DNA from: Earliella scabrosa
Lineage: Eukaryota > Basidiomycota > Agaricomycetes > Polyporales > Polyporaceae
Assembly (NCBI GenBank): GCA_022605405.1
Contig: JABYQQ010000026.1
Coordinates: 496,001-560,000, forward strand
Length of the DNA stretch: 64,000 nucleotides
Direction of reading: 5' to 3'
How positions within the stretch are numbered: position 1 is the stretch's first letter; every line of letters starts with the position of its first letter. Shown here piece after piece: positions 17,153 through 46,000 of the stretch. The notes beneath the pieces were generated by a model. The model was given only the letters and a program-made list of their open reading frames with translations. It had not been told where the DNA came from and made no database searches. The position numbers were made by a program, and so were the translations under genes.

Positions 17153-17658
17153 ATGTCCAGCCACTCTGTCTTAAACCAGGACGTGCTCTTTTCCATCTGC
17201 GAGTTCTTAGACTTGGAAGACCTAGTGGACTGGGAAAAGGACGTGAAGCAGGAGACCCTGGCGCGGTGCGCGCGGGTGTGCAAGGCTTTTTACCTGCCTG
17301 CCATCCGTGTGCTGTGGAGGCGACTCTACGACCTCTTTCCACTGCTGTCTCTCCTTCCTTCATTCAAGAAGATTGAGCCGAACCATGGCGTTGATATTTA
17401 CGTGAGTGTTCGCAGGGCTTGTACGTTCATTTGCATTTTATCTGATGACTGAGGGTTTTTGTAGCTACTCACCGACGACGTCGCCGCGGCCGACTGGGAG
17501 AGACTCCAGTCTTATGCATACCACATTCTATACCTCGGCTCTCCCAAAGTGCGCGCCTTGCTTTCCCGTCGAAGTCGTCAGCGTGTCAGATTGAAGATTG
17601 CGCCCGCGACTTGGTCAGCGACCGAAGCGCTTATGAAGGGCAAACCTCTCCTACCCAA

Positions 17659-17686
17659 CACTACGGGAAGTAAACACGCTGTAAAG
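17659..17686 (+). repeat. Left terminal inverted repeat of the CACTA element
   Basis: Begins CACTACGGGAAGTAAACACG. It pairs with 19725-19752. The stretch CTACGGGAA also matches the F-box gene sequence at the corresponding position of gene 2 (CCTACGGGAACTC at about 21069-21081), so the exact boundary with the host gene is ambiguous. Confidence 0.75.
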
Positions 17687-19752: not shown

Positions 19753-20589
19753 CCCAGTTCTGGCTCTTTGGGAACGCATGTGATGTATGGAGCCGATCCT
19801 TTCCCGCTCTGCGCTTCGTCAGCTGCAACTTCGATCAGCCGCCTCGGTCGTCCGAGAATTGGCAGCCGAGCACGCACACCATCTCGCAGACCATCAAGTC
19901 CCTCTTCGGCATCAAGCTGATCACCCAGCTCTCGCTCACCTTCGCCCCCAGCCAGTTTACGGTCTCCGACCAGGACATCAACGACATTGCATCCGCCTGG
20001 CCGTGCCTCACCACGCTCGAGCTCGGCGTGGACCCCTCCCTCTACATGTTCATGCCTCAGGATCCCGCCCAACCTGGGACCGGGGAGACCGCGCTCTCCT
20101 GCCTGGCCGTCCGGTGTCCGCTATTGCAGATACTGCGCCTCGACCGCCTTGATATGCGGGACGTGCATACGGAGACGATCGAGGAGTGTGTGGGGCGTAT
20201 CCCGACGCATCGCAGGCTGGAACATCTCCTGTTTGGTCGCGTTCGGGTGGACGGAGGGGATTATGGGAAGGGGGCTCGGGTCGTCGACCACTTGTTTCCC
20301 AATTTACGCGTGCCGCCGGAGTGGGAGCAAATCCGAGGCGTGAGGATGTTTTGGGATGCGATTTCGTCGTGCAAGGCGGAGAGGGAAGAGCGAGCCGGAG
20401 TCTCGACCGAGTTACCCACGACGGTTTGAACACTTTCGACGACTCAGTGCAGTGCAGTGTACATAGTGCGTGCGCGTGATGCGGGCGAATCCAGACCAAG
20501 AGTCAAGCGCCAAGCCCCGGCATAACCCGAATTCTTTCTTCTCCGGTCCCGAACGTTGTTGTCGACGATCACCGGCACCCCCACTCAGT

Positions 20590-24351: not shown

Positions 24352-24870
24352 TCAGTGCGTAGTATTTGAGCGGGTCCGAGGAGGTCCGAGGCTTTGGTAG
24401 CGCCCTCGGTAGCGCCTACGGCGCGCTTGCTCGAGAACCTCGTCACTGTCTCTGACATCATCTCTCTGAGACCCAGAGCTTGCTCCCTCCTCCTCCTCCT
24501 CCTCCTCCTCCTCCTCCTCCTCATGTACCTCAGGTTGATACATCATGCTCGATTCGTCACTGTCATTTCGACTGCTTGCTGTCATGCCGGAACTCGTAGT
24601 ATATCGACTCGATCGTTAATGCACGGCCCAAGCTCGCCATCACCTTCATTCAAATCATCGTCATCGTACAAACGGGAGCTATTTGTATGCGGGCGATATT
24701 GAGCTGGGAGTTTCAGGGCAGGAAGTCGAAGTGTGACTGTGTAAGAAGTGAGTTGCTGGATATCTGCCCGAGACAAATCGACCAGCATTCGTGACGACTG
24801 GTCTGAACGGCAGTCCTCCCTCCGTACAATCTCCCCAAGTTCCACTGTGTCCAAATGTACGGGATTACCT
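24352..24870 (-). other. Possible small minus-strand gene upstream of HET-A (uncertain)
   Basis: Two adjoining minus-strand frames look somewhat coding: one with EDCRSDQSSRMLVDLSRADI and an acidic stretch (LYDDDDLNEGDGELG), the next with an acidic Glu run encoded by the CCT microsatellite. A related stretch, DDCKSSPSSRMLDTLSKASI, can be read on the minus strand near 35985-36045, in the same position relative to HET copy C. Conservative replacements (E/D, R/K) favour coding on this strand. I cannot build a complete gene: no convincing start or intron is seen. It could equally be a conserved 5' region copied with the HET gene. Confidence 0.3.
24486..24521 (+). repeat. (CCT)12 microsatellite
   Basis: Twelve uninterrupted CCT units. 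On the minus strand they would encode a poly-Glu tract. Perfect trinucleotide runs of this length usually vary in number between individuals. Confidence 0.9.
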
Positions 24871-25088
24871 TGCTACTCCCGTGAAGACAAGAGGTTTCGG
24901 TCTACCGTGCGAGACCGGGTAGATGAAAGTGAGTAACAGCAAGTACCATAACAAACCTTGTGGCTGCGATCTAACCTAATCCTCGTCGTTCCCGCGTGGT
25001 AGTCGTGTGGTCGGCATGCCAATCGTCTGTACCATACTGTGGCTCTCGCTCTGGCCCTCCTGGCTCACATCGGAGTGCAGAGTTGAAC

Positions 25089-27909
25089 ATGAAACGCGGT
25101 ATGCAACAAGCTTTCGAATTTGTCCGTCGCGCGGTCCAATTGCGCCCCCGCCGATTCCGGTCTAGCGAAGACGAGGACAACCTGATTCGTGACACGGTGC
25201 GCACGTTTGCTCGCATCCACGGTACTACACAAGAGAATGGGAGAACGGCCTTCGTCGTCCTCATAAGCGTTCTCTTCCACCGATATTTCCTATCCATCCA
25301 TGCACAACCGCTCCCTCCCAAACCCCTGCTCGATGCTCTCGTTTGCTTGTGCGAGCACGGGATCGAGGCCGCTCAAGATGCCAACAAACCCGCCATCATA
25401 CATCTACTCATCCTGCTAGGGGAAGTGACAGAGACCGGCGAGCGCGGCAGCAATCAAGAGGGACGTGCTATCGCGTTCATTGAAGACTTCATCTCAACGT
25501 TGAAAGCTGCCTGGTATGTGGACAAGAGCATCCGAATGGAGAATGCGAGGTGGTCCCCCATGCCTTGGTCGGTTGCCTCGAGCTCAGCTGGGATCCCTCC
25601 GCCAAACGCGCAATTGGATGGTGAGTGTACGGCTTTTCGTCGGCGGGCTAACATCAATCAACTTTGTAGCAGATGCTGCATATTTACCGCCCTCAGAAGA
25701 TGGTCTTCTTTGTAACGATCACGTCCATTTTCCCCCCATCCTCTGGCTCGGCGGTGTCCACGACGGCCGTCCTCGAGCTACCTCGCTCAGCGCATACACC
25801 TGGGTCCGATTGCCGGCTGCAAGCTCTGGGATGCAACAGCTTGCTCTATGGCAGAGCGCGCTCACCTTCGGCATGCTCGAAATAATCTGCGGGAAGAAAG
25901 TCCCCGAAGCCCTGCTCTTGTCGCGTCAAGAGGATGGGCAGGTACTCCTGACTGACGCGAACATGTCCGCCGTTCTCTCACGATGGCTGTTCGCACTTCC
26001 GCATCCTTGCGCGGTGGAGGAATTGCACACCCGGGAGTGGGCGAACAGCGCCAGGGATATCCTCAACTGGGCACAGCATGCGATCGAGGAGCACGTCATG
26101 TTCAGCGAGAGAATGGTCTCCAGCGCTGCTGGGCTCACTCCAGACGAATTTGACGACATAATGTGGGGCCTTACCACCCTCTGCGACTTCCTGGACATGC
26201 TCCTCAAACTTGTGCGACGTGTCGTGCACAGGGAGACTGCTACGGATGAGTATGGGACTATCAACGAAGTCGCCGTTCAGAGGACCACCGACGCGTATAC
26301 GGGGCGAATGGTCGCCAACGGGTGGTGTCCGGCAGCGGTGCGATTGGTTCGATCCCCGCTCTGCATACTTGCGTATGCCACTACCTTTCCCCCGCCCACC
26401 ACAGACAGCTCAACAGTCGACCACGCTTCGTGCATCCCCGACCGGTGCGTCGCGCGGAACCTCGATCCCGCCGTATACAAGACCCAGCATGCACCCTCTT
26501 GCCAGAGCCTATCGTGCTCGTTCATCTGTCCACTCTTCGACAACGTGCGAAACCTCCTCTCGTCTGGCGCCATACCCGTGATTGTATTCGATGGCGACAC
26601 ACTCGCAGTTCGGGATGCAGCAGAAGAACCCTTCATCGCGATCTCCCACGTCTGGGCCGACGGGCTCGGGAGCACGACCGAAGTCGGACTCCCAACGTGC
26701 CAGCTCGAGCGCATCGCGGGCTACGCGCGGCAGCTCGTATCGAACGGCGCGTTCTGGGTCGACTCACTATGTGTCCCCGAGACTAGGGATCTGCGCAAGG
26801 CAGCGATCCGTCTCATGGCAGAGACCTATCGGCGCGCGGACGCAGTCGTCGTTTTCGATGCCGGCATACGACAGCGGTGTACAGCCGCAGCCCACCTCAA
26901 GGAGACCGCGCTGTGGATCGCCACGTCCGGCTGGATGCAGCGCGTGTGGACATTGCAGGAGGCGCTCCTCGCTCGGGAGCTGTACTTCGAAGCCGCGGAC
27001 GGGCTTCTATCGATGGCTCGTCTGCGCGGAGCACTCGATCATGCGAACGAGCTCGTCCCCTCCGTCCTTGGACCCTTTCCGCGCGAGCCGTTCACGCTCA
27101 TGTACAGCCATCCTTCGCTGACGAGGCTGATCCATCGCGCGGTCCGCAGAACCTCCTTCCAGGACGTCATCTCGCTCCTCAAGAGCCGGACGACGAGCAA
27201 GCCCGAGGACGAGAGCATCGCCATCGCAGGACTCCTTGGGGTGGACGTCGCGAAGCTGCTCGCAGAAGAAGACGCGGACACACGCATGCGAGCGCTCTTC
27301 CTCGAGCTCAAGACCCTTCCCGCAGGCATCCTCTTCAACGGCGCACCGAAGCTCCCCTTCCCCGGCTTCCGCTGGGCGCCGCGCTCGCTGTCTGCGGTGG
27401 GCTCTGTACGACGCATCCCAGGAACTGCAACCTGCACCGCGCGAGGCCTCACGACGGAAGGGAAGTTCCCGGTTATAGCATTAGGGTCCACACTACGTGT
27501 GGGCAGGTCGGCGGAGTATCCGGACGGCATCGCGATCTCCTTTCCGGGCAGCGACGTGCTGATCCTCATTAGCAATCTCCGGGACCTTGCGCCTGAGGTG
27601 CCATCGCTCATGAATGGGATCGTGAGCGTTCCTGGGGAGCTGCAGTCCTTCGCGGAGCCCGGGTGCGCAGACTCTGCGGTGTTGACGAGCCGCATCGCGA
27701 TGGCGGTCCACATCCCTCACCTCGTCTTTCCGCCGAATGCTCCTTCAACGGACGACGAGCCGATGGTGTGCGAGTGTCTGTTCTATCTGGGGCTTGCCGA
27801 GGTGCCGCCCCACATGAACGCAGACCGGAATGGCGAGGCTTGGGCCAAGAAGGTCGGAGGCATCGTGGTTGAAGGAAGGTTTATCTCGGTGCGGGTCACT
27901 GTCACTTGA
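25089..27909 (+). CDS. HET-domain protein A (about 922 aa)
   Basis: HET domains mediate heterokaryon incompatibility, a regulated cell death triggered on fusion of unlike mycelia. Exon 25089-25620 encodes a helical N-terminal domain ending in the family linker SPMPWSVASSSAGIPPP. A phase-1 intron (52 nt if the acceptor at 25672 is used) leads to exon 25673-27909. This starts with the WLGGVHDGRPRATSLSAYTW / ALTFGMLEIICGKKVPEALLL module. The HET core lies at about residues 495-640: FIAISHVWADGLGSTTEVGL, FWVDSLCVPETRDLRKA, ETYRRADAVVVFDAGI, RVWTLQEALLARELYF. TTSKPEDESIAIAGLLGVDVA follows, equivalent to the 'R..T.P.D..YA..GL' segment of other HET proteins. The frame is open throughout. A further 5' exon ending near 24927 (before GTGAGTAACAG) is possible, as other copies have a short first exon. 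Closest relative in the window: pseudogene C. Confidence 0.85.
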
Positions 27910-28587
27910 GCACTTCTTCAACATACGCTTCGTTATGGTATTCGCCACTACATATCCAATGCAAAGTGCCGAGGTTCTTGCCCCTGGATTCATTATGCGA
28001 ATGCACCCATTGGCGAACGACTCCTGCCCTCAGCGTCTGTTGTCTCCTCGGAACATATCATGATACTGACTGGGCATGTTGACAGATCATTGGGCTCAGA
28101 CCGGGGCACAAAACACGCTATCCACCGAGTCACTTCGCTACGCTCACAGCGACGTCACGGACCTCCCATTGAAGCGTATCGGCGCTGCCGAGGGCGTGTC
28201 GCGACCGAACGTACCCGATCCCATCCGCCTCAGCCGCTCGCGAGCCCTGCGATTCAATCACCTGTAGTAACATGAGGTTCCGCCTCATTCAATTCGGGCT
28301 CTCTACCGTTTGAACTTTGTCTCCTCGTGTTATCGGTCCTCGGATGTCAAACGCCGTGCGATGCGTTACTCCATCGATTCATCCTGACCAAGTCAAGTCG
28401 GGGTTCCAGACGGGGGAAAGCCAACAGTCCCGGCAAGTTCAAGATGAAGCTGCGTGTACACCTCCGGTGTGGATGAGGTGAGCTCTACTGCTGTCATCGA
28501 TTGGAATGACCGATATAAATACGCTTAGAGTCTTGGACAACTCTCGACACCCTTGCCCTCTTGTCATTCTGTCCTACAGCCATCCCC
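27910..28587. other. Intergenic; 5' region of HET-B with a TATA element
   Basis: No coding sequence supported. A TATA-like element (gatataaat, 28512-28520) lies about 70 bp upstream of the HET-B start codon and is a plausible core promoter. The remainder shows nothing recognisable. Confidence 0.55.
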
Positions 28588-31570
28588 ATGACTTCGATCG
28601 CTGGTGATGTGCGTACACTCTATACGCTCTCTCCACAATCAATTCACATGCAGCCATAGATTGAACTTGTCTTTGCGAAGGCCCTAGGCCCTTCCGTAGA
28701 GCCGACTGTCGGGGATCTGGATCCACTGTATCTCTTTCTCCGGGCAGCGTATGAGTTCAAGTTTGGTCAGAGCGGTAATCCGTCTCGATTCAAGATTGCT
28801 CTCCTGGCTCTGCTCGATGCGCTATTTGCAGAACATTTCCTGCTGCCACTCAATGCCCCTCCGCACCCGGTTACAGAGGAATCGCCTTTGTCCTTTGCTC
28901 AATGCCTCCTTTTCATGTGCAACCATGGTATTAAACAGGTCGTACGTGATCACCGCGACCAGTTCTTCCGGCTCATCGTTGGGCCGTTAGAGTTACTATA
29001 CAGTGTGACTTGGAGGACAGCACGCAACGACGGCCTTGGACACCCGGTGGAAGTCCGCGAATGCCTCTCATTTGTGAAACACTTTCTCGAGGAAATGGTG
29101 GTCGTGTGGCACAACACGCAAGTGCGTCTGAGCGACTGGACGCCTATGCCTTGGTCGACGAGGTCACGTCAAGAGGGGATACCTCCGCCGCCTGGATCAT
29201 TTGATGGTGAGTGATCATCGTATGTTTGGTACCTCTCTTACCAAGGGTGCATATCAAGATCATACTCCAAGTGCACCTCTACAGTTCGAAGAGGGTTGCC
29301 CGGCAGTTATTCGACTACGCCATGATCTCTTACACTTCCCAGACATGGTTTGGCTTGGTGGACCTCACAACGGATACTGTCGTTCCACTTCCCTCAGTGC
29401 GTACGTCTGGCTACGCCGAGCTACCATGAAGACTCGAAGAGACTGCATTGCGCTCTGGCAAAGCGCGCTATCCTTTGGCCTGTTAGAGATCATCACGGCC
29501 ATGCGAATCCCGGAGTCGCTCCTTCTATCGTCCCAGCCAGACGGAACGTTTGTCATGACCAGTGCGCGGGTGTCTGCGCTCATCTCGCATTGGCTGTTTG
29601 GACGGCCAGAAGCCCGGGGGAGTCCGTGGATCAAGCAATGGTACCATAACGCCGATGCCATGGTCAGATGGGCCCTGCAAGCAATCAACGAGGAGACGTT
29701 CACATCTATAGCCTACAACATGGCGGCAAGGGTGGACGATGAAGAAGACTCAGGCGCCCAAGGGGAGCGGCACGATGTTCTCGCGAGCTTGACCACACTC
29801 TCACATTGGCTCTACACCCTCTTGAATGTCTTCCGTGACGGGTGCAGCGCAGACGTTCAGCGGGCATGTGGCAGAGGGTCCATCTTCAACATCGACACCC
29901 AGTCTGCACATGATGCGCTCGACGTCTATCGGGTGAGGGTCCTGGCCAACGGCTGGTGCCCTTACAATTTGCCACTCTTCACCAATTTGAACACATTCTC
30001 GTATGCAAGCACTTTCCCAGCATTCAAACGGAGCCCAATCCAGGGCTCAGATCATCAAGCTTGCAATCCCGATCGCTGCATTGCATGGCACAACATCAAC
30101 ACCTCCGAGTACGTGACCCAACACGCGCCAACATGCTCCAATCCAACATCCTGCCCCTTCCTATCGCCATCGCTTCCTTGCATTCGCGCCCATCTCTCTT
30201 CCCGCCGAGTTCCAATCATGGTGTACGATGGCAAGACACTTAGCGTGCGCTGCGCGGACGACGGGCCCTACATCGCGGTCTCTCATGTCTGGGCGGACGG
30301 ACTGGGAAGCACGACCGAAGCCGGGCTTCCCGTATGTCAGATCGCGCGTATCGCGAAGTACGCCTGTCAGCTCGTTCCTGCCGGTGCCTTCTGGGTCGAC
30401 TCCCTATGCATTCCGAACCAAAAGGATCTCCGCAAGGTCGCCATCCAGCTCATGGCGGAGACATACCAAGGTGCCGATGCAGTCGTCGTGTTGGACGCTG
30501 GAATTCGTTCCCTCTGCGACTCTACCGCTCCTATCAAGGAGATCGCTTTTCGTATCGAGACGTCTGCTTGGATGCAGCGTATATGGACCCTCCAAGAGGC
30601 GCTCCTGGCTCGAGAGTTGTACTTCGAGACCAGGTCCGGCCTTTACTCCATGGCACAACTCAACGAAGAACGTCGCGGCAACCTCGCACGGATCCCATCC
30701 TCTCTGGGTATCACGATGCCTTCAGAACCTCTCTTAGAGTACTACATGCCCAACCTCCTGCTCTTCACGATAGCATGGGATCCAAGTCAACTGCGCACGT
30801 TTTGCCTGCTCGTCCACTTGCTGAACAAGCGCACCACCGCCAAACCAGAGGACGAGACGCTCGCGATTGCCGGGCTTCTAGGCGTAAACGTCTCAAAGTT
30901 ACTCGAAGAAGACGGGGCAGACGCACGCATGAAGGTCCTGCTCTCCGAAGTCAAGGTACTCCCGTTGAGTATTGTATTCACCGCTAACGGACCTACCGAG
31001 CAGCTCGCGCTCCCAGGCTTTCGATGGGCCCCACGGACTCTGACGGCGAACATCAAAGCCATCTCAAGTCCGACAGACACCGCTCAATGCACATCCGAGG
31101 GTCTGACAAGCGACGAAGAGCTGATAGTCATCCTACTCCCCCAGTCCAACGACAGCAATCCAGAACACAAGCCCTGCTGCGAGCAATGCGAGATGGACAT
31201 CGACAATGTGGCCGACAAGACGATGTACATGGCGCACGGTCGTGGGGATAGTGCACGTTGCCGCTATCACCCGAGGTGGAACGGATTGCTGGTCATCCCA
31301 AGGGAGCTTGCCGTGCCAGCGGAGTCATTCATCGAGCTCGCTGCCGTGGCCGTTCACATACCCCCCGAGGAATGGACTGCTTTGATTGCTCGTCGGGAAG
31401 GCACTTCGGGTGGACGCGCTATTGTATGCGAATATCTCTTCCCTGCGCGGCTCGGGCGGGTTGATAGCGTTACACGGGAGAAGATGCTTCGTGTTTTCAT
31501 GAAGGGAAGTACTCCCGTCTTTCCATTAGTTCAAGGAATGTTCCTGTCAGCGCGCGTTACTCTTACGTGA
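28588..31570 (+). CDS. HET-domain protein B (959 aa)
   Basis: Three exons: 28588-28608 (MTSIAGD only), 28660-29206 and 29259-31570. The introns are 51 and 52 nt, and the frame closes at 960 codons. The second exon is a helical N-terminal domain, poorly conserved in sequence but ending in the shared linker TPMPWSTRSRQEGIPPPPGSF. The third starts FPDMVWLGGPHNGYCRSTSL and ALSFGLLEIITAMRIPESLLL. The HET core is at about residues 525-670 (YIAVSHVWADGLGSTTEAGL, FWVDSLCIPNQKDLRKV, ETYQGADAVVVLDAGI), followed by TTAKPEDETLAIAGLLGVNVS. A cysteine-containing insertion (KPCCEQCEMDIDN) in the C-terminal domain is absent from the other copies. No lesions seen. Presumed allorecognition or cell-death effector; the trigger and partner are unknown. 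Confidence 0.88.
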
Positions 31571-31861: not shown

Positions 31862-34800
31862 AAACATCAAGTCCGCATGTTGATACTTCTCCCGATTCTA
31901 CCATGGTATACATACATGTGCACGATTACTGCTTCGTATTATAGTCTTCTTCCGAGTCCATGTCGTTCAACGCCCCCCATCCCTGAACCGTGGCAAAGAG
32001 GATACGCATCCGTGTGTTTTGGCACAAGAACACCAACTCGGATGAGCCGACGACGGCGACCTCCACAGCCTACGCAGCGAGCTCGCACGCAAAGTGGAAA
32101 AAGTCGACCGACGACGCGTTCACGCCGTACTTGTAGATCTGCAACGACAACAGTGCACATCAGCAACACGAACAGACAGTGACGCACGAAAGAGAAACCG
32201 GACGTACAAAGTGTGACGCGACCCAGCTCGAGAACAGCGCCCGCTGGTACGTGACCGGCAGCCGCTTCAACAGCGTATCGAGCCCGACCTTATCCACAAG
32301 CGTCTTGGGAATCGCGCGCCGCATGACCCCGCGCCGGCTCGGCTCGTCGTCGAATAGGTCCGAGTTCTCCAACTCCTCCTGGAGCTCGTTCAGCTCGCTC
32401 GACAGCTCGTCCGAGATCAGCGTCCGCGGCTTGGCGCCCTGCACCCGCGCGTGTTCGCGCCAGATGCACCCAAACTCGTTCGCCACGTTCTCGGTGATGA
32501 TCCGCTGGATGTCCCGCACGTAGCTCTCGTAGAATGGCGACGGCTTGCCGTCCATGAAGATTATGTTCTCCACGTACTCCTCTGACGAGAGACTGAGGCC
32601 GGCGAGGACCTCGAGCGATGAGCTGGTGACGCCGCCCTTGTTCGCGCTTGAGTCCTTGAAGAGGATGACCTTGCGCTTCTCGAGAAGCGCAAGGGCCTGT
32701 TGCGTGATGAAGAGATTCGCGCCTGTAACGATGTACTTGAAGTGCGGCTTGCCCTCGGCATCAAAGAGAGCAGAAATGCTCGAGATGTGTATAGCCGCCG
32801 GACTAGGGAATCATCGTCAATAACGACAGGGGAAATATAGGAATGTGAACTTACCGTCCACCACAGGGCACGAATAGGTCAGCCTTGAAGCGTAGGTGAG
32901 CGCCGTTGCGGAAATCAGTGCAGTCCAGCAGGACAACCTCTCCAGCTGCGAGGTGACGTCAGACGGTGAAAAGACCAAGATGTACAAGAACACTCACATG
33001 GCAACTTCACATCCTGGTCCTTGACCTTCACAAGGTAACCATCCTTGCTGAGCTTCGACATAGCCAAGAAGCCAACAGGCTTGCGCAGCTTCGCGAGCCG
33101 GATAAGCTCTTCGCGGTTGATCCCGTGAGAATCGTGGAGGACACTTCGACTTTTCAGAGATCAGGAGAATCTCGTCTGGGGGGCACGTCAGTGAAATTAG
33201 CTCGCAATGCATCACGAACAGCTAGAAGACGTACTGGAGCCAAGATCACCATCTGAGTAGACGAGCAGACATGGGTGAGCGATCAAGTACAGCAACCTAT
33301 ATGCGTCGAAAACACGCACCAGGACCGCCAGTCTGCACCTTCGTGATGTCCTTCTCACGAAGCCCAAGCTGCTTGTAGATGCCCAGCACGTACGGACGCA
33401 CCGACAGCGACGTCATGCCATACACGTCGTGCGGTACACCGTCAAGCAACTGTGCGCTCTTGCCAGTGGTGAACGACTTCCACCACGTCTCAGCGCCGCG
33501 GGCGCGAGCGTGCACTATAGGATCGCATAGATCAGCATTTACCGTGGCACAGGGATGTGAAAAGTTGTCACTCACTCGCTGCCCAGTCCATGAGATCGGC
33601 AGTACCATCTGTATGGCTCGTGAGTAAGCACCACTCAGGAATACTAATCGAGAAGACGAGGGCCGAAGAACAGCAGCTCGGGCTTGCCGTACAAGTCGAC
33701 AAGCTTCTCCTTAATGCCAGGCGTTTGACCAGGGATGAGGAGGTCAATGACGGCCTGTGAAACTTGGCTTAGCAGACCGCACGAACATAGAAGGAAAGTG
33801 CACTCACGTCGACATATTTCTCGAAGCATAACCTTGGGTTCTCGCCAAGCCTACCAACACATGAACACCCAATCGACCGACATCGAAAAAGTCTTCGAGA
33901 CACTTACGAGGGCAAGCTCGCTCCCTTCGCACCGCCTTCGGGAATGTCCTGGTTCTTGAGCGACTGTGTTGACGCAAGGGCGTAGTTCTCGTCGAAGCTG
34001 TCATCACAGGGACAGCAACTCGTCCACGATCAGCCGTACCCACAGAAAACGCTGGTTGATCGAGTGGTTCCTAAGCAAGCATGTCAGCATGCGCACAATT
34101 GATGGAGCGAAAGGCTGCCTACTCCCGGTTCCTGGACATGACGATACGGATACCGTCACGCGTGACGTCCTTGAAGCGAATGTGGAATAGCAGGGCCCTC
34201 CGGGCAGACCTGGACTACGAGTGTCGTTCAAACTTCGAAGAGCATTCAGCAGATTGGGGGGCACTAAGATCATCCGTTAGTACTTGTGTGGAGTTATCGT
34301 GCCTGAAGAGTCTGAGTCCTGTCGAGCCTTAGCCGAGGCGCGCATCAGTCGGGCTTACGCCCTCCTTCAACGCGCCATGCACTGGTGTCAGGTGAAGTGT
34401 CAGTGTCGCAGAAGGACTGGAGTGCAGTGTGCACCGTGGTGGTCATGCAAGTTGGTAACATTTGCTCAACATTTGCTCATGGTCGCAGTTTTGACGATCG
34501 CGACAAGAAAACAAGGCAGCAATGGAAGAGTGACAGTGTCACAAAGTGACGCCACGTGGAGGTGACGTGACGGTCACTTAGTACGTGATTTCTCCCCCTA
34601 AGACCTGTTCTACTTCGTAGTCCAGGAATCCACAGAACTCGCCACCTGCGAAGCCGTGAACATCTGACACGCGCGGGGGGTCCCGGCAGACAAACCACGT
34701 CCCGATGACGAAGAACATTCCATAGGGCTTCTTCGGGTATTCCACCTCAGGGAGGAAGTCCGGTGCTAGGCGGAAGGAGAGCGCTACCTTCGTCTTCAGG

Positions 34801-35333
34801 ACGTTCCTGGATACATAGCTGTCAGTCGGAGAGTACCTACAGACGGAGTAGTATGACGCACTTGTTGAAGATCAGGAAGCTCTCTACCACTTGCACCTCG
34901 TGCTTGTTTCGTCACAGTTCGCATGATTCCTTGCGTCCTGGGTTTGGCGCCCTGCACCCGCGCGTGCTCGCGCCAGATGCACCCAAACTCGTTCGCCGCG
35001 TTCTCGGTGATGATACGCTGGATGTCACGCACGTAACTCTTGTAGAACGGCGAGGGCTTGCCGTCCTTGAAGATCATGTTCTCCACGTGCTCCTCTGACG
35101 GCGAGAGACTGAGCTCGGCGAGGACCTCGAGCGACGAGCTGGTGACGCCACCCTTGCTCGCGCCAGGGTCCTCAAAGCACGCAATCCTGCGCTTCTCGAT
35201 AAGCAGACGGGCCTGATGCGCGATGAAGAGCTTTGCGCCCTGGACGATGCAGTTGAAGTGAGGCTTGCCGCCAGCGTCACAGAGGGCAGAGACGTTCGAG
35301 ATGCTGATAGCCTCCGGACTAGGCACACATCGT
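31862..35333 (-). pseudogene. Rearranged partial copy of the NAD-glutamate dehydrogenase gene
   Basis: From 31862 to about 34195 the sequence follows the intact gene from 42894 to about 45236, introns included, covering the C-terminal half and its 3' flank. Exonic sequence is damaged; for example the codons for IAIIDGSG (intact gene near 44180) are lost at about 33145. About 430 bp of unrelated DNA follows (34196-34620). Then 34620-34925 matches about 45230-45560, and at about 34925 the match jumps to the C-terminal coding region, so 34930-35333 repeats about 43460-43860. It is therefore a segmental copy with an internal re-duplication. No 5' half or promoter is present, so an active enzyme is not possible. 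Conserved remnants include SPFYESYVRDIQRIITEN and RRAIPKTLVDKVGLDTLLKR. Confidence 0.85.
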
Positions 35334-36279
35334 CAATTCCAAATGATAGAGCAGCAAAAATTGTCACTCACCGGACACCATATGGCTCAAGCCCCAAAGA
35401 GATCAGCCTCGACCTGAGCGTAGGTGGGTACCGTGACGGTAGTCAGTACCATCCATTGGACGACTTCGAGGTCGACTGCGTAATTAACAGCGGCGGTCAG
35501 TTAATATCAGGCTAATGCGGCTGGTGGGCGTAGGGTGAGGATGGGTGTCTCCAGTACTGGCTGTTGAACGTTGAACGTTGAACGACGTTGATCGTTGAGT
35601 TGTCGTTGAGCGCGAAGGCTTGAGCGCTTAGCGCTTGAGCTCGAGCTCGAGCGCGCAAGCTCCCTTTGGGCATAGGCGCTTACAACACAACTGTTACCAA
35701 TGACCATCATCATGGTCCCCTCGAGCAATGAGCATATCTCCTCCTCCTTCCCTGAGCCTTGCGTTCTGATCCACCGCTTTCGTGCTGTGACGGCGTACAC
35801 GCTTGCTGCTCACTGTCTCTCCGGATGCGCGTCATTTCTCTGCTCGACATTTGTGCATCACATACCCGCAGTCACCTTCGTTGAAGTCCGTTCAATTCGC
35901 CACTGCAACAGGAGATTTGGACTTGCCAAAGAGACTGGGATTGGAGCGCAATGTGGCGAAAGATGGCGGCGTATCATGTGAGTGTATACTTGCTTTAGAC
36001 AACGTGTCCAGCATTCGTGACGAAGGGCTCGATTTGCAGTCGTCTTTCCGTATATCGGTACGGACTCAACCCCCTGCGACTCAACCCCCTGCTCCCATGA
36101 AATCGGTTGAGTCTCGCGCGCGAGATGATGTGTATGACAGTGAGTAGCAGCATTTTCACAGACCTCCTAGCTGTGCTTGGGACCGTGTCGTCGTTGTGTA
36201 GTCGGCATGCCCATCGTCTATACCACACTGTGGCTCTCTCTCTTGCCCTCCTGGCTCACAATGGCGCGGAGAGGTGAAC
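35334..36279. other. Intergenic between the dehydrogenase relic and HET copy C
   Basis: No supported gene. It holds a short tandem repeat with a palindrome (listed separately) and, at about 35990-36279, a region similar to the DNA upstream of HET-A (24780-25088). This shows that the copy-C duplication included 5' flanking sequence. Confidence 0.5.
35561..35662. repeat. GTTGAAC tandem repeat followed by a GCTTGAGC/GCTCGAGC palindromic cluster
   Basis: Units of gttgaac(g) repeat from 35561 and decay into gttgatcgttgagttgtcgttgag. They pass into overlapping palindromes (tgagcgcttagcgcttga, gagctcgagctcgagc). The second part could fold into hairpins. It lies near the junction of the dehydrogenase fragment and the HET-C duplication, so it may mark a rearrangement site. 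Confidence 0.75.
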
Positions 36280-38880
36280 ATGAAACGCGGTACGCTCGAA
36301 GTTGTCCGTCGCGTGGTTCCATTTCGCCCACACCGATTCTAGTTTAGCGAAGACGGGGACAGCCCGATCCGTGACACAGTGCAGAGGTTCGCTCGCATCC
36401 GCGGTACAACGCAAGATAATGGAGATCGGCCTTTTTGCTGTCCCCGTAGGCGTTCTCTTCCATCGACACATCCTATCCATTCACGCACAATCGATCCCTC
36501 TTCTCAACGCTCTCGTTTGCCTGGCCGATCAAGACACGAACAAACCCAACCGTCACACACCTGCTCATCCTGCTCGAGGAAGTGACAGACACAGGCGAGC
36601 GCGACAGTACTCAGGAGGACCGGGCTATCACATTCATTCACGACTTCATTTCACAATTGAAGGCTGCGTATATGGACAAGGGCATCCGAACGGACAGTAC
36701 GGAGTGGTGCCCATGCCGTGGTTGGTTGCGCTCTGCTGGTATCCCGCCGCCCGACGCGCAATGGGATAGTGAGCGTCCAGCTTCTCGTCGGTAGGCTAGC
36801 ATCAACAGGTTTGCAGCGGATGCTGCCCCTCTACCGCTCTCGCAGGAGGGTCGTCATCGTCGTTCGAACCTCTTTCTTCGGACCTTTTTCTCCCAGCAGC
36901 CTACCACTACGTCCGTTCTTTGCCCATCCTCTAACTCGGCGGCGGTGTCCACGACGACCTTCATCGGGCCACCTCGGGTAGCGTATACACCTGGGCCCCA
37001 TGGCATGTTGTCAGCTCTGGGATACAACAACCTGCCCTATGGCAGAGTGCGCACGCCTTCGGCATGCTCAAGATTATTTGCGGGAAGAAAGTCCTTCAAG
37101 CCCTGCTCTTGTCGCATCCAGAGGATGGACGGGTGCTTCTGATAGGCACGAACATGTCCGCGGTTCTGTCGCAACGGCCATCCGCACTAGTACTTCCGCA
37201 CCTTCATGTAGCGGAGGAGTCGCCCACACGGGCATGGGCAAACATCGCCACGGACGTCCTCAACTAGGCGGAGCATGCGATCGAGGAACGGGTCATGTTC
37301 GGCGAGAGAACGGTGTCCAGCACTGTTGGGCTCACTCTAGACGAGTTTGACGACATCGTCTGGGGCCTGACCTCCATCTACGACTTCCTGGGCATGCGCC
37401 TCAAAGTCCAACGCGGTGTCGCGCATGGGGAGGACTACCGTAGATGGTAATGGAACTATCAACGAAATCGCATTCCACCCGGCGAGGCGTATACGGGGCG
37501 AATGGTCGCCAACGGATGGTGTCCGGCAGCGATGCGCTTGGTTCTATCTCCGCTGTGCATACTTGCTTATGTCACTGCCTTTCCCTGCCCACCTCACCCA
37601 CCTCAACGCTGTGTGCATCGCCGAACGGTTCGGCGCACGGAATCTCGCGCGGAATGCAAGGCCTATCATCCACCTGCTTGCCACGGAATCGTCGTCTGGC
37701 CCCATTCCCGTGGCTGTATTCTATACATAGCCACATATGCGCAGCGAGGGATGCAAAGGTGGCACCCACATCACGATCTCCCACATCTGGGCCGACGGGC
37801 TCGGGGGCACGACCGAAGCCAGACTCCCAGCGTACCAGCTCGTGCGCATCGCTAGCTCCGCGCGGGAGCTCGTATCCGACGGCGCGTTCTGGGTCGAGGA
37901 TTTACGCAAGGCGGCGATTCGTCTCATGGCCGGGACGTATCTGCGCGCGGACGAAGTCTTCTTCTATGCGGGTATACGTCAGCGGTGTACCGCCGCAGCC
38001 CGCCTCAAGGATACCGCGCTCTGGATTGCCACGTCTTGCTGGATGCAACGCGTGTGGACGGCTCCTCGTCCGGGAGCTGCACTTCGAAGCCACAGACGCG
38101 CTTCTATCGATGGCTCATTTGCAGGGAGCGCTCGATCGTGCGCACGAGCTCGTCCCGTCTGTCCTTTGAACCTTCTTCCCGCGAGCCACTCACGCACATG
38201 TACAGCCGCCCTTCGCTGTCGAGGCTGTTCCATCGAGCTGTTCGCAGGGACGTGGTCTCGCTGCTCGAGAGCCACACGACGAGTAAGCCCGAAGACGAGA
38301 GCATCGCCATCGCAGGGCTCCTTGGGTGGACGTCGCGAAGTTGCTCGCAGAAGACGACGCGGACACACGCATGCTAGGGTTCCTCCTCGAACTCAAGACC
38401 CTTCCCGCCCGCATACCCGTCAACGGCACGCTGAAGCTCCCCTTCCTCGGCCTTCGCTGGGCGTCGCGCTCGCTGTCTGCTGTGGGTCATGCACGATGCA
38501 ACCCAGGAACCGCAACGTGCACCGTGCGAGGCCTCACGGCGAAAGGGAAGTTCCCTGTCATAGTATTAGGGTCCACACTGCGGGCGGGCAGGTCGGCGGA
38601 GTATCCGGACGGCATCGCGATCTTTTCATGGAGCCAGGGTGGACTCTGCGGTGTTGACTAGCCGCATCGCGATGGCAGTCCACATCCCTCACCTCGTCTT
38701 CCCTCCGAATGCTCCTTCAACGGACGACGAGCCGATGCTGTGCGAGGGTCTGTTCTATCTGGGGCTTGCCGAGGTGCCGCCCCACTTAGACCGGATTGGC
38801 AACGGGAGGTTGGGGGCGCCGTGGTGGAAGGAAGGTTCGTCTATGTGCGGGTCTCTGTTAATCGAGCATTTGGTTTGTTT
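36280..38880 (+). pseudogene. HET-domain copy C, degenerate duplicate of HET-A
   Basis: The order of motifs follows HET-A from its start (MKRG) to its end (EGRF near 38836), in several frames. An in-frame TAG at 37265-37267 replaces the TGG of LNWAQHAIEE in HET-A. Frameshifts occur, for example near 36340, 37435 and 38080. The catalytic-core segment SLCVPETR is deleted between FWVE and DLRKA (about 37897). Motifs still readable include ISHIWADGLGGTTEARL, TTSKPEDESIAIAGLLG and NGTLKLPFLGLRW. Similarity extends upstream of the start codon, so this was a duplication of the whole gene. No functional HET protein can be made. Confidence 0.88.
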
Positions 38881-39771
38881 CGGTCTAGATTTGCCATGGT
38901 GCTCTGCCACTACGTATACAGCGGAGTCCACAAACTCACCAGGCGGTTGTCACTCTAGGGACGTCATGGGCGAGCGACTGACTGGAGTGTGTCCGTATCT
39001 CTGGCTCATTCGAATGCATCACGACACTGACTCGTATACCGACAGATTCTCAAGCGTGCAAACTCTGCTCGTATTCACTGCCGTCGCGCGCTCTGTGTTC
39101 CAGGGTTGCAGTACTACGAGGTCTGGCGTCATGCACTGACAGAGCGCGTTTCAGTCACTGGCTTCCTGTACATGAAGTCCACCTTCTTGTACCACAGTTC
39201 TCTGCCCCCGTTCTTCCTTCCGATCTCCCCGCACGGAGTATTCTCACATTGAAATGCAAGGAATTTGCGGTAGAACCCACTCATCTTCATCTCCGACGGT
39301 GCCTACGAGAAACTATCCTTGTATCAAGGTTGACGCCTCATGAACGATCAAGATTGTATTTCACGCCCGAGCGCACATTGGCCATCGATGATCAAGTACG
39401 ACTTTCACCGGTCACAGGCATCCAAACCGGTGCTGCCGGAGAACCTCACGGCCGCATTGTCAGGTATCGTCGCAGGACTGACCGGGTCCGGGTGAGACAA
39501 CTACACCCTTTCGGTAGGTCCATCTGCCCATCCGCCGCATGCCTGTGCGGCATGCCTGTGTACCTGCACTTAGCAGAAGCAGAATGTGTACAGTGGAAAT
39601 CGCTGCACCGCCGTCAGAAAGTCTTCTTAGACGTCATATAGTAGGGTTCAATATACCGATTCCATCCTGACCACACCGCCGATGAGCTCGCCATAACCCT
39701 TGCTGCTCGATGGTCCTGCGTGTTTGCTATATATACTATGACCACCCCGTTCACAGATAGGCATATCTTCC
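38881..39771. other. Intergenic, no gene seen; TATA element before the USP-like gene
   Basis: One open frame of 130 codons (39249-39641) has no recognisable motif and no splice partners, so I do not call it. A TATA-like element (ctatatatact, 39727-39737) lies about 40 bp upstream of the start codon at 39772. A short inverted/tandem word (gccgcatgcctgtgcggcatgcc) occurs at about 39536-39558. Confidence 0.45.
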
Positions 39772-42732
39772 ATGCCTCAAGACGCGATAGACATACAAAT
39801 GGTAAGCACATGGATTCGAGTCAGGAGAGAGCCAAGCACTAAACAGCATTCGTCGTCTCAGGAGAGCGGCGGATACGTGCCGTCCCACGACGAGATCGTA
39901 GCAGCGATCTGGGATGTACTGAAGAATCATCGCAATCGCGCAACGACGCCATTCGACCTCTTGGCTAATGGCGCAGCCATGGTATGAAGGTTCACACAGC
40001 GAGATCTTCCATTGAACTCATCCACAGCTACCACAGTCCCCAAGTGATAGACCAAGTTGTCGTGACGACGTCATCAGACACTCGGACAGGTGAGAGTTAG
40101 CATTCCCTTAATGTGATAGTGAATGTCTCAGTCCATCCTCTAGTGACTCAGATACTGAACCAAAGGAGCACACCCTGGGGTTTCTGAGCGAACTCGACGA
40201 TAGCATGTCTAACCTGCTAGGCGCTACACTGGCCAAGCGAATGCTACTGAACAGCTCGGGGTCTTCGGGCGAACTCGACGACAGCATGTCCGACGACTCG
40301 GACCCGATACGGACGGACGCTCTACTATCAGGAGCGCTATTAAACACCTTGGAGCTTGCGGGCGAGACGTCTGACCCGATACGCATTCGACTAGTCATAG
40401 TAGGAGCGTCATTGAAGGAGCAGGTTAATAGTGATAAGGCGCTAGGTAGGGGCCTAATCGACCTCGCTTCATGTTCCACTAACTCAATCACAACCCCCCC
40501 CCCTGCAGATCTACCAACATTCACCCTACCCGACGCCGCCGCGCTTGACAGCTTCCTACGCGACAAGCTGTCAGGTGATCCGCTTTCTGAACCCGTTCAT
40601 ACTCACACAGTGCCATGCCCGTCCGACATACCATGGTTGAACGGTGGCCATGACGGCTTTTCCCCATCCCACACGCTCTCTGTCTATATCGATCGGCGAC
40701 GGAAGCAGGAGAATACTCCGCCCACTATAGGCAACGATGCGGGTGTGTGGATTGGCGCCATGACATTCGGGCTCCTCGAGGCCGTAACAGGCGTCGCCGT
40801 ACCCGAATCCCTTCTACTCCGTCGTCGAGGCGTCGGGATGCACATTCTGTTGGGTTCGCGGATGGCGGGCTTCCTGGAAAGTTGGTACCAATTCATGCGA
40901 GCGTATCCATGGCCGGACGAAGACTCTCGCACCTCGAAGGGTCGAGACGTCATGCAACTCTCAGGAGACGCTCATTCTATGCTCAAGAAGGAGTTCGAAC
41001 GGTGGCCTGCAGGCGCTTTCTCCCCGGACAGGTTCACGGTGGAGGAGCGCAATGACGTCCTCTACCCGATATACAGCTTCGTGCATGCGCTGTCCAACAT
41101 ACTGCAACGGCTGTGGCCGGACATTCAGGCCACCGAGGGTCCGACCGGTCGCATCGACAGAATCCCCGCGGTCTTCCCGAGTTATCAGTGGTCTCGCAAC
41201 TCCTGCTGGCTTGACGTGACCTTGGAGATTCTGTGGAACATCATGCTGCGAGACTTCCAGGACTTCGCAGACTGCTTCGCTCGTGTTCCAACAGACGACG
41301 ACAGCGACCGTGCTGGGATATACCAATTGTACCAACATCTCCGTGAGCGTCACGCTCTCCATGCGGCGGGAGGTACAAGCGTCACAGTGCTTACTGAGCA
41401 ACGCGATCGATTCCGGGAGGTTTTGGCAGATGGGAAGATCATTCATGATGTCACAAGTTGCGAGAACGCCACGGTCAGTACGCCTCATCTCCGTGCATGC
41501 AATTTGTCTCACCTCAGTGACTCTAGGTATGGCTGAAGAGGATACTTGTCGCCTCTGAGCAGCCAGACACACTCCGTTTCGCGAGGGCTCAGAACTACTT
41601 TTGGGCATCCTATATCAACTTCGAGCATTGCCACAATGCAGATGATGCATCCTCGCCTCATTTCCGCCTCTCGACGAAACTTCAACAGGACTTTCCCCTC
41701 TGCGCTGACGAGGAGAGTTGGGATCAGCATCAAGGGAAGCTTGAGTCCTGGCTGCGTCAGCGCACGAACGTCAAACCTCCCCTTGCAGTGCACACTGCAC
41801 CATGCTGGAGGAACACCGAGGATCAGACCACGGATACTCCTGACTCCCCGACGGTCACCACCCGCTGCCCCGGCTATGTCACACGCCTCGAGGCTTATGT
41901 CTCCCTTCCAGTCTCACTCATCATAGAGACTATCAATGGGGAATGGGACTATCCAGAGGAGCTTGTCCTGTATCCAAAGGGAGTCGACGGCTCTCCGGAG
42001 GTGATCTTTGACCTCGTTGGGCGCATCCTCCATGCTGAAAGCGAACGTGGTGCCGACTGGTCCCACTACATCTGTCTCTTGGCTCATCACCATGACAGTT
42101 CGCCAGAGGCTCAGGTCGCGCTGTACGACGACACAGCTCACAACGGAGAGGCTATCCTCATTCCCGATAGCAGGCTCTCAACTCATCTCAGCGGCCCTGA
42201 CACATCACTCCGAAGTCATCATCGGCATCCTCCACTCCACAAAGCATTCCAAACGACAGCCGTCGCATACCGTTTGCGTGGTGGAAGGAAGTCGCAGGAG
42301 GAGCTCTACCACTACCAGTTAGACTCCTTGCTCCGCCACTACAAGATCAAGCTCTCCACAACGTCCCTTGACGAGCTACCCCAAGCAAGGATCCACCTCG
42401 ATAAACCGTCGACCTACGTGCTTCCAGAGGTAGAGCGGCTCTGGTACAGTCCCCAGTCTGACGTACGACAGCAAAGGACAGACTATGGCACCCGAACCCA
42501 CCCGCAGTCCACCATGCTCAATCCCGTCTCCGAGTTCCCAGTCAAGCGTCATGACTCTGCATCTCTCAGGGAGGTCACCATGGACATATCAAGCAATGGC
42601 CAGCGAGGCGGAGTCTGCAAGAGGCCTGAGCACGAATGCAGCGAGGAAAGCAGCACAGCAGGGGAAAGTGGTAGTCGAAAGCGAACACGGACTGACGGTG
42701 GAGGCCCGGTATTTGAAAATGTCGATACATAG
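39772..42732 (+). CDS. Protein joining the HET-family WLGG module to a USP-like (C19) peptidase domain (919 aa)
   Basis: Five exons: 39772-39801, 39862-39981, 40028-40089, 40132-41473 and 41527-42732, closing at 920 codons. An N-terminal acidic, serine-rich region contains an internal duplication (ELDDSMS...SDPIR). Then comes PWLNGGHDGFSPSHTLSVYI and AMTFGLLEAVTGVAVPESLLL, clearly the module found between the N-terminal and HET domains of A, B and D. In place of a HET domain is a region like ubiquitin-specific proteases. A Cys box SRNSCWLDVTLEILW puts the probable nucleophile near residue 429. A His box GADWSHYICLL puts the His near 698, followed by ALYDDTAHNGEA and TAVAYRLRGG. USPs remove ubiquitin from proteins. 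The Cys-box is atypical (NSCW rather than NTCY), so substrate and activity are uncertain. A basic C-terminal tail (SRKRTR) ends the protein. The 3' end lies 162 bp from the duplicated dehydrogenase flank. Confidence 0.8.
40179..40425 (+). repeat. Degenerate internal duplication within the USP-like gene
   Basis: The phrase gaactcgacga.agcatgtc occurs at about 40189 and 40269, and gacccgatacg.a at about 40302 and 40375, each pair about 75-80 bp apart and followed by similar text (cta.ta..aggagcg). The repeats encode ELDDSMS and SDPIR segments of the acidic linker, suggesting that the linker grew by tandem duplication. Confidence 0.6.
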
Positions 42733-43096
42733 AGTGTGAGACATTCTATATTTGCAGCTCCAGAGACGACATCGAGTGAGCGATTCTGCTTGATCGTAGT
42801 CACCCAGGCTTCGAACGAAATTTGAACACTTAACATGAGCTGTGCGAGTGATCCCGCAGCCAAACTGCGCCAACTGCGTCGCCCATCTCGAAGAAACATC
42901 AAGTCCGCATGTTGATACTTCTCCCGAGTCTACCATTGTATACATACATGTGCACGATTACTGCTTCGTATCATAGTCTTCTTCCAAGTCCATGTCTTTC
43001 AACGCCCCCCATCCCTGAACCGCGACAAAGAGGATACGCATCCGTGGGTTTTTGGCACAAGAACGCCGATGGGCCGACAACCTCCACAGCCTACGC

Positions 43097-46000
43097 CTAC
43101 GCAGCGAGCTCGCGCGCAAAGTGGAAAAAGTCGACCGACGACGCGTTCACCCCATACTTGTAGATCTGCAACGACAACAGTGCACGTCAGCAACACGAAC
43201 AGACAGTCACGCACAAAAGAGAAACCGGACGTACAAAGTGCGAAGCGACCCAGCTCGAGAACAGCGCGCGCTGGTACGTGACCGGCAGCCTCTTCAACAG
43301 CGTATCGAGCCCGACCTTATCGACAAGCGTCTTGGGGATCGCGCGCCGCATGACCCCGCGCCGGCTCGGCTCGTCGTCGAACAGGTCCGAGTTCTCGAGC
43401 TCCTCCTGGAGGTCGTTCAGCTTGCTCGACAGCTCGTCCGAGATGAGCGTCCGCGGCTTGGCGCCCTGCACCCGCGCGTGCTCGCGCCAGATGCACCCAA
43501 ACTCGTTCGCCGCGTTCTCGGTGATGATCCGCTGGATGTCCCGCACGTAGCTCTCGTAGAACGGCGACGGCTTGCCGTCCTTGAAGATCATGTTCTCCTC
43601 GTATTCCTCTGAGGAAAGACTGAGGCCGGCGAGGACCTCGAGCGACGAGCTGGTGACGCCGCCCTTGTTCGCGCTGGAGTCCTTGAAGAGGATGACTTTG
43701 CGCTTCTCGAGGAGCAGACGGGCCTGTTGTGTGATGAACAGGTTCGCGCCTTCGACGATGTACTTGAAGTGAGGCTTGCCCTCGGCGTCAAAGAGGGCCG
43801 AAACGTTCGAGATGTTGATAGCCTCGGGACTAGGGTCGTTGTCAGTACCGAATGAAGGCGCGTAGAACTGTGTAACTCACCGGCCACCACATGGCACGAA
43901 TAGGTCAGCCTTGAAGCGGAGGTGCGCGCCGTTACGGAAATCAGTGCCGTCAAGAACAACCTCTCCAGCTGCGAGGTGACGTCAGACGAATGAAACGACC
44001 GAGGCAGACCAGAACACTCACATGGCAGCTTGAAATCCTGATCCTCGACCTTGACAAGGTAGCCGTCTTTGCTGAGCTTCGACGTATCGAAGAAGCCGAC
44101 AGGCTTGCGCAGCTTCGCGAGACGGATGAGCTCCTCCCGGTTGATCCCGTGAGGATCGTGGAGGACACCAGAGCCATCAATGATCGCAATTGTCTTGTCA
44201 GAGCTCAGGAGAATCTCGTCTGGGGGATATGTCAGTGTTGGTTCGCGCTGCATCACGAACAGTGAGCAGACGTACTGGAGCCGAGATCACCATCTGAGTA
44301 GACCGAGCAGACATCGGTGAGCGATGGATTCCATAATATATGCGTCGACAAACACGCACCAGGACCGCCCGTCTGCACTTTCGTAATGTCCTTCTCACGA
44401 AGCCCAAGCTGCTTGTAGATGCCCAGCACGTACTGACGCACTGACAGCGACGTCATGCCATACACGTCGTGTGGTACACCGCCAAGCAACTGTGCGCTCT
44501 TGCCGGTTGTGAACGACTTCCACCATGTCTCAGCGCCGCGGGCGCGAGCGTGCACTACGGGAATGGCCCAGATCAGCATTCACCGTGGCACAGACATGTG
44601 GGAAGGTGTCACTCACTCGCTGCCCAGTCCATGAGGTCGGCAGTACCCTCTATATGACTCGTGAGTGAGCACCACCAAAGGATAATCGAGGAGACGGACC
44701 ATCAGGGCCGAAGAACAACAGCTCGGGCTTGCCGTACAAGTCGACGAGCTTCTCCTTAATGCCGGGAGTTTGGCCAGGGATGAGGAGGTCGATGACGGCC
44801 TGTGACACTTGGCTTAGCAGATCGCACGAACGGAGAAGGAAGGTGCACTCACATCGACGTATTTCTCGAAGCATAACCTCGGGTTCTCGCCAAGCCTACC
44901 AACACGTGAACACCCAATCGACCGACATCGAGGAAGCCTTCAAGGCACTTACGAGGGCAAGATCGTTCCCTTTGCACCGCCTTCGGGGATATCCTTGTTC
45001 TTGAGCGACTGTGTTGACGCAAGCGCGTAGTTCTCGTCGAAGCTGTCATAGCGTCAGAACGACAGCAACTCGTCCACAATCAGCCGCACTCACAGAGAAC
45101 GCTGGTTGATCGAGTAGTTCCTACGCAAACACGTCAGTCTGCGCTCGATTGATGGAACGAAGATTACTTACTCCCTGTTCCTGGACATGACGATACGGAT
45201 ACCGCCACGCGCGACGTCCTTGAAACGAATGTGGAATCCACGGAACTCGCCACCTGCGCAGCCGCATCGTCGTGAACATCTGACACGCGCAAGGTGCCGG
45301 CGAACAAACAACGTACCGATGACGAAGAACATTCCATAGGGCTTCTTCGGGTACTCCACCTCGGGGAGGAAGTCCGGTGCTAGGCGGAAGGAGAGCGCTA
45401 CCTTCGTCGGCTGGTAGAAGTTCGTCTTCAGGACGTTCCTGGATACATGAATATCAGTCGGGGAGTTCCCCACAAATACAGAGAAGTATGACGCACTTGT
45501 TGAAGATCAGGAAGCTCTCCAGCACTTGCAGCTCGTGCTTGTTTGTCACGGTTCGCCTGATCTTGTCGTACAGCTCTGCGTCAGAAAGGGGCATCTGCGT
45601 GCGCAGGCGCTGGTACGAGAGCGTCGGCCTATACGAGTCCATAGATCAGCATCCTATTCGAATCAAGGGAATGGAGAACTTACATCAACTGCGCAGCCTC
45701 GTCGGTCTCGGGATAGTGCGTCATCGCAAAGTTGACGTAGAGCAAGTTGATCTGCCATAGATTGTAAGCATGTCAACACTCAGGAGGGCATACTATTCGG
45801 ACTTACCAACTCAGCATGGCTGTGGATGACTTCGGCGATGCTCTCGCGCGTGAAGGTCTCCTCCCTGAACCGGCGCTTGATGTCGTTGAGCACGCTCGCA
45901 TGTGTCGGGTTGGATTCGTCGAGGATGTTCTTGAGCGCGAGGTACGCCTGCCCCAGCCTATTACAGAAGTGCTGGGCAAAGATCCACCCACAGTCTGCAA

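Follow-up and report, generated by a model that had tools for sequence, protein, structure and literature searches.

The window analyzed here is a stretch of 64,000 nucleotides (nt) from the polypore Earliella scabrosa. It harbors on the plus strand a gene (39772-42732, hereafter the focal gene) which joins the N-terminal module of a family of HET-domain proteins to a C-terminal domain unrelated to HET. At the sequence level this joined gene is confirmed as real. We read it as a lineage-specific effector swap, in which the HET-family module has been joined to a divergent papain-like isopeptidase of the ubiquitin-specific protease (USP) type that would be recruited to the partners of its HET siblings; to this reading as a whole we assign a probability of about 0.45, i.e., slightly less than even.

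Structure of the focal gene

The gene starts with an ATG at 39772 and its stop codon ends at 42732, exactly as given in a first-pass annotation made from the sequence alone. That annotation counted five exons; the present model gives six (39772-39801, 39862-39981, 40028-40089, 40144-40445, 40509-41473, and 41527-42732), separated by GT-AG introns of 46-63 nt and encoding 894 amino acids (aa). For the 5′ part there are 634 stop-free candidate models which differ in the small 5′ exons, and the 5′ end is therefore uncertain. Exons 5 and 6 are firmer: the junction between them is identical in the deposited Earliella scabrosa protein C8Q76DRAFT_758330 (575 aa, 40952-42732, plus strand), whose first residue is Met320, inside the module. 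The module (residues 195-377) and the USP-like Cys box (R401-N-S-C404) lie in a single frame, which stays open for 474 codons, and are part of one exon; the USP-like His/Asp box follows in the next exon. In the 894-aa model the motifs WLNGGHDG, TFGLLEA, RNSCWLD, SHYICLL, and YDD start at residues 214, 257, 401, 672, and 693, respectively. A basic RKRTR stretch near the C-terminus (residues 877-881), seen by eye, is a possible nuclear signal.

The N-terminal module is shared with HET proteins

The module is encoded by nucleotides 40577-41125 (plus strand), as delimited by hmmsearch over residues 200-375, by the search of the own genome and by alignment, and contains the motifs WLNGGHDG (40634-40657) and TFGLLEAVTGVAVPESLLL (40763-40819). 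For comparison with HET proteins a profile was built from 14 open reading frames (ORFs) having a HET core, one of which is a pseudogene fragment without the module. In a one-sequence search this profile matched residues 200-375 of the focal protein with 79.8 bits (E 7.5e-27); a second stretch of the protein scored -2.9 bits, which is noise. The best paralogue in a genome-wide search with the focal protein was found at E 4.6e-19 and is 34% identical over residues 198-377. By these comparisons the match of the module greatly exceeds what chance would produce. Furthermore, the alignment shows 14 invariant module positions in 13 HET proteins; the focal protein keeps 12 of them (H20, G22, Y32, R36, G57, L59, E60, E69, L72, L73, G79, and W95), only L49 and A125 being changed.

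The homology to the HET family stops at about residue 377. In the HET paralogues the module is followed first by a linker of ~130-150 residues, in which Cys and His form an invariant pattern (C217, H249, C252, C257, H272, C276, and C282 in the 13 HET proteins, numbered according to window:29309-30265), and then by the HET core. With these seven positions the linker looks zinc-binding. The focal protein has neither this Cys/His-rich linker nor the HET core. The earlier statement that the shared segment sits just before the HET core thus stands as far as the sharing is concerned and has to be corrected for the intervening linker.

An AlphaFold 2 model of the HET-type module, calculated from five window sequences, suggests a mostly helical unit with a β-hairpin (predicted local distance difference test, pLDDT, 56.8; predicted template modeling score, pTM, 0.58). 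The long helix 145-175 of this model, whose confidence is moderate to low, ends about where the homology of the focal protein stops. At E≤0.001 Foldseek found no structure matching the module model (best E 0.63), and a search of the PDB with the module profile gave only two chance-level matches (E 0.53 and 3.1). The module does not correspond to a Pfam family: below the cut-off the focal module matched only DUF3681 (E 0.056), and three further families were hit by one module member each (E 0.11-0.16).

Module carriers in the genome

The genome of 51.7 Mb was searched twice, with the focal protein and with a canonical module, and the resulting lists are lower bounds. At least 14 other loci carry a full-length or nearly full-length module. 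A HET core is present in all 14 listed loci; 13 show the W(A/V)DG motif, and the C5 locus has a PF06985 match in the same open frame. Among the matches listed the focal gene is the sole module carrier without HET: the focal protein matched none of the Pfam families at E≤10, hence no PF06985 HET core, and four paralogues in the window do match this profile.

The module locus on C20 lacks the WLGG motif, and the one at window 8864-9769 has an in-frame TAG directly ahead of LGG. The corresponding in-frame stop of the HET gene at 7694-9727 (minus strand), located at 9728-9730, is a candidate for a recent loss or for an unrecognized intron. A further module match, C26:532923, is the broken HET copy of the window described below. 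The match C26:393883 and three weak ones on C14, C9, and C4 cover the Cys/His linker region only. Nine of the 14 listed module-HET loci are on contig C26 between 333k and 554k, which has the appearance of a HET array around the window.

The C-terminal domain as a putative protease

The C-terminal domain shows a USP-like Cys box, RNSCWLDVTLEILW (41195-41236, plus strand; Cys404 codon at 41204-41206), and a USP-like His/Asp region, FDLVGRILHAESERGADWSHYICLL...VALYDD (41908-42132, plus strand; His673 codon at 42064-42066 and Asp694 codon at 42127-42129). The whole genome contains a single match to the DNA pattern of N-[S/T]-C-W-L-D, namely at this Cys box. Cys404, His673, and Asp694 follow each other in the order found in USPs, and the spacings of 269 and 21 residues are USP-like by the usual range of box distances in these enzymes. 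Both HMMER and hhalign place the His half (FDLVGRILHAESERGADWSHYICLL...VALYDD...AVAYRL) on the USP His box. With a hidden Markov model of eight USP sequences it reached 3.2 bits, 5 of 2000 shuffled sequences being as good (1108 scored), and with hhalign E 0.015, with a probability of only 2.9% and 3 of 300 shuffles as good. A strict three-box pattern, which was written after seeing the sequence, fits the focal protein and none of 20000 shuffles or 54 long ORFs. A looser three-box pattern is uninformative; it misses the focal protein itself and fits one of 20000 shuffles.

Several results speak against a USP-type enzyme. The Cys half does not rise above shuffle level, neither with a six-sequence USP profile (593 of 2000 as good, 862 scored) nor with hhalign (76 of 300). 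The deposited 575-aa protein is unmatched in Pfam, NCBIfam, PHROGs, and PADLOC at E≤10, and the genome searches with PF00443 and PF13423 do not list the focal gene. Sequence searches of the PDB were empty or returned unrelated entries. Protein searches with residues 171-800, with the Cys-box region and with the module gave the own deposited protein only, or nothing. These homologue searches need shared five-residue words and did not return even the HET paralogues; distant relatives may therefore be overlooked by them. Scans of viral and prokaryote contigs revealed no relative. A structure prediction was run on the deposited 575-aa protein alone, with AlphaFold 2 in single-sequence mode; its pLDDT of 34.7 lends no support to a papain-like hand fold.

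Some other candidates were set aside. A weak C-terminal match in the own genome (C5, E 0.04) coincides with a patatin-like gene, and weak C-terminal matches on C37 (E 0.26 to 1) lie in repeated frames that were judged unrelated by eye. Identity with the VTD deubiquitinases is not supported, the focal sequence being D670-W-S-H673 instead of Asp-x-His. In the Ulp1/SENP peptidases (C48) the catalytic order is His-Asp-Cys, whereas the focal Cys precedes His and Asp. The spacing does not fit a transglutaminase or a classical papain.

We infer a papain-like fold and the triad Cys404-His673-Asp694, and we consider it fairly probable that the C-terminal domain is a papain-like isopeptidase, which we do not file under peptidase family C19. 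The term "deubiquitinase-like" of the first-pass annotation is retained in part: motif order, spacing and the weak match of the His half agree with it, and family profiles, PDB sequences and structure prediction give it no support.

The focal gene lies in a duplicated block

The window contains a tandem block duplication, in which 24572-28087 corresponds to 35806-39047 and 31862-34188 to 42894-45237. The left flank of block A (24572-28087, plus strand), aligned in two pieces with 73% and 72% nucleotide identity to 35806-39047, holds a HET gene at 25504-27909. The left flank of block B (35806-39047, plus strand) holds a broken copy of this gene, a pseudogene at 36183-38871 with stops and frameshifts and with 75-82% DNA identity to the HET gene at 24992-27915. 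The right flank of block A (31862-34188) is 88% identical on the nucleotide level to that of block B (42894-45237), which is directly downstream of the focal gene; this part belongs to a glutamate dehydrogenase gene.

Between the flanks, each block has a slot of ~3.8 kb. On the same strand, the slot of block A contains a HET gene with the module (28588-31570, plus strand, 5′ end set by eye; module at 29309-30265, followed by the HET core), and the slot of block B contains the focal gene. The two genes are 25% identical in the module alignment and 35% over 97 residues in the genome search, and they show no DNA match, while the flanks are 72-88% identical. With no DNA match and a module identity of only 25%, it is unlikely that the focal gene simply diverged from the HET gene of block A after the block was duplicated, and it is no simple late copy of that gene because DNA similarity between the two is missing. 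Possibly one gene was replaced in the block B slot by an older, divergent relative. The slot otherwise taken by a HET gene, together with the module homology, the missing HET core and the status as sole listed non-HET carrier, bears out the earlier description of a shared module in so far as a different C-terminal domain follows it.

As to the surroundings, 31862-35453 and 42894-45561 represent extra copies of part of the glutamate dehydrogenase gene, with PF00208 in 43190-43876; the block A copy consists of two pieces with 94% and 82% protein identity to the block B stretch. Further away there are a Plavaka transposase (window 1177-3042, minus strand; PF18759, E 3.7e-93) and an F-box-like gene (PF12937, 20467-22302, plus strand), with 79-81% identical DNA nearby at 17161-17669 and 19779-20407.

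Alternative explanations

The results on the Cys half and the lack of family, PDB or homologue support would also be expected if the fusion is real and the C-terminal domain is an orphan or another Cys-His-Asp enzyme whose likeness to USPs arose by chance or convergence. We regard this as somewhat doubtful, since order and spacing of Cys, His, and Asp argue against it, as do the placement of the His half at the right position by two methods and the failure of the strict three-box pattern to fit any shuffle or long ORF, post hoc though this pattern is.

A further objection concerns the module itself. The deposited gene model omits the module core (WLNGG and LLEAVTG) and starts at Met320, which weighs against the effector swap. 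With this start, and with the neighboring HET copy in block B being a pseudogene, the module core could be an untranslated relic, the functional gene encoding the 575-aa protein downstream of a decayed HET N-terminus. The module region is, however, devoid of stop codons, and the deposited residues 320-375 still align with the module. Moreover, upstream of Met320 the identity to 13 paralogues at codon positions 1, 2, and 3 is 0.43, 0.55, and 0.33 (1387 codon comparisons), compared with 0.33, 0.47, and 0.32 for residues 320-377 (748 codon comparisons). This has the pattern of a constraint at the protein level, some of which may, however, be older than the fusion. Taken together, a relic appears distinctly unlikely. 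Even less probable, in our view, is an inhibitor or decoy whose module binds the HET siblings or their ligand without HET output, the protease half being secondary or inactive. Such a role would agree with the conservation of most invariant module residues in a protein without HET and with the position of the gene among HET genes; the long open C-terminal frame and the three candidate catalytic residues would be needless for a pure decoy.

Proposed function and comparison with known systems

In the effector swap that we favor, an unrelated C-terminal domain would have taken the place of the Cys/His linker and the HET core behind a polypore HET-family module (residues ~195-377). The most likely identity of this domain is a USP-type papain-like isopeptidase that has diverged very far, with Cys404-His673-Asp694 as its triad and ubiquitin or a ubiquitin-like modifier as its target; the conjugates acted upon are probably ubiquitin-like. 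Guided by the module to partners that the HET siblings bind, the protease would edit the conjugates carried by these partners, whether to provide an alternative output or to restrain the siblings. The module may be a common sensor or adaptor, and the focal protein may belong to the same recognition network acting through ubiquitin. The substrate, the docking role of the module and a role in non-self recognition are speculative.

The HET-domain (PF06985) proteins encoded in the same genome resemble the focal protein in the N-terminal module, the strand and the slot in the duplicated block; they consist of module, Cys/His linker and HET, whereas the focal protein has an unrelated C-terminal domain and neither linker nor HET core. 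With the USPs (peptidase family C19; UCH PF00443 and UCH_1 PF13423) it has in common a Cys box, a His box and an Asp as well as the weak alignment of the His half. The USPs compared here have the Cys box [NA]TC[FY][ML]N, whereas the focal box is NSCWLD and unmatched by Pfam models. The Cys box of USPL1 is of the CWLD type. USPL1 (C98) is described as an atypical, SUMO-directed USP with the triad Cys236-His456-Asp472 and a USP fold only 14-16% identical to USP28 and USP7 (PMC8983731); the focal protein is likened to it by this description of a Cys-His-Asp triad and not by sequence. Deubiquitinase domains in Agaricomycete fusion proteins are known from the VTD deubiquitinases, for which VTD-RBR fusions and an Asp-x-His active site are described (PMC9741609). 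The focal protein differs in that an Asp stands three residues ahead of the His (D-W-S-H) and another at +21.

Fungal NOD-like receptors (NLRs) couple a shared part to effectors of many kinds, HET and peptidases (CHAT, S8) among them, and follow the same principle of interchangeable effectors; the accounts of these effectors in PMC9815663 and PMC10197012 include, in the relevant passages, none of the USP type. Since the focal protein has no Pfam match of any kind, an NLR nucleotide-binding part was not detected in it. The HET domain is described as a cell-death domain related to TIR (PMC10890737). It is conceivable, though we think it unlikely, that a HET-type recognition family has exchanged its TIR-like death domain for a deubiquitinating or deSUMOylating protease, that a single sensor module leads to cell death in one form and to ubiquitin editing in the other, and that the HET siblings can be silenced by the protease form.

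In the open-licence literature of PubMed Central we did not find a HET-type family joined to a ubiquitin protease. The focal gene is a natural construct in which the module stands apart from HET; it places a domain boundary near residue 377, and a module parted from HET and joined elsewhere offers a direct test of the role of the module. Should the protease prove real, a HET-type family would be tied to ubiquitin signaling, and the exchange of HET for a protease, in a HET family where no NLR part was detected, would represent a new variant.
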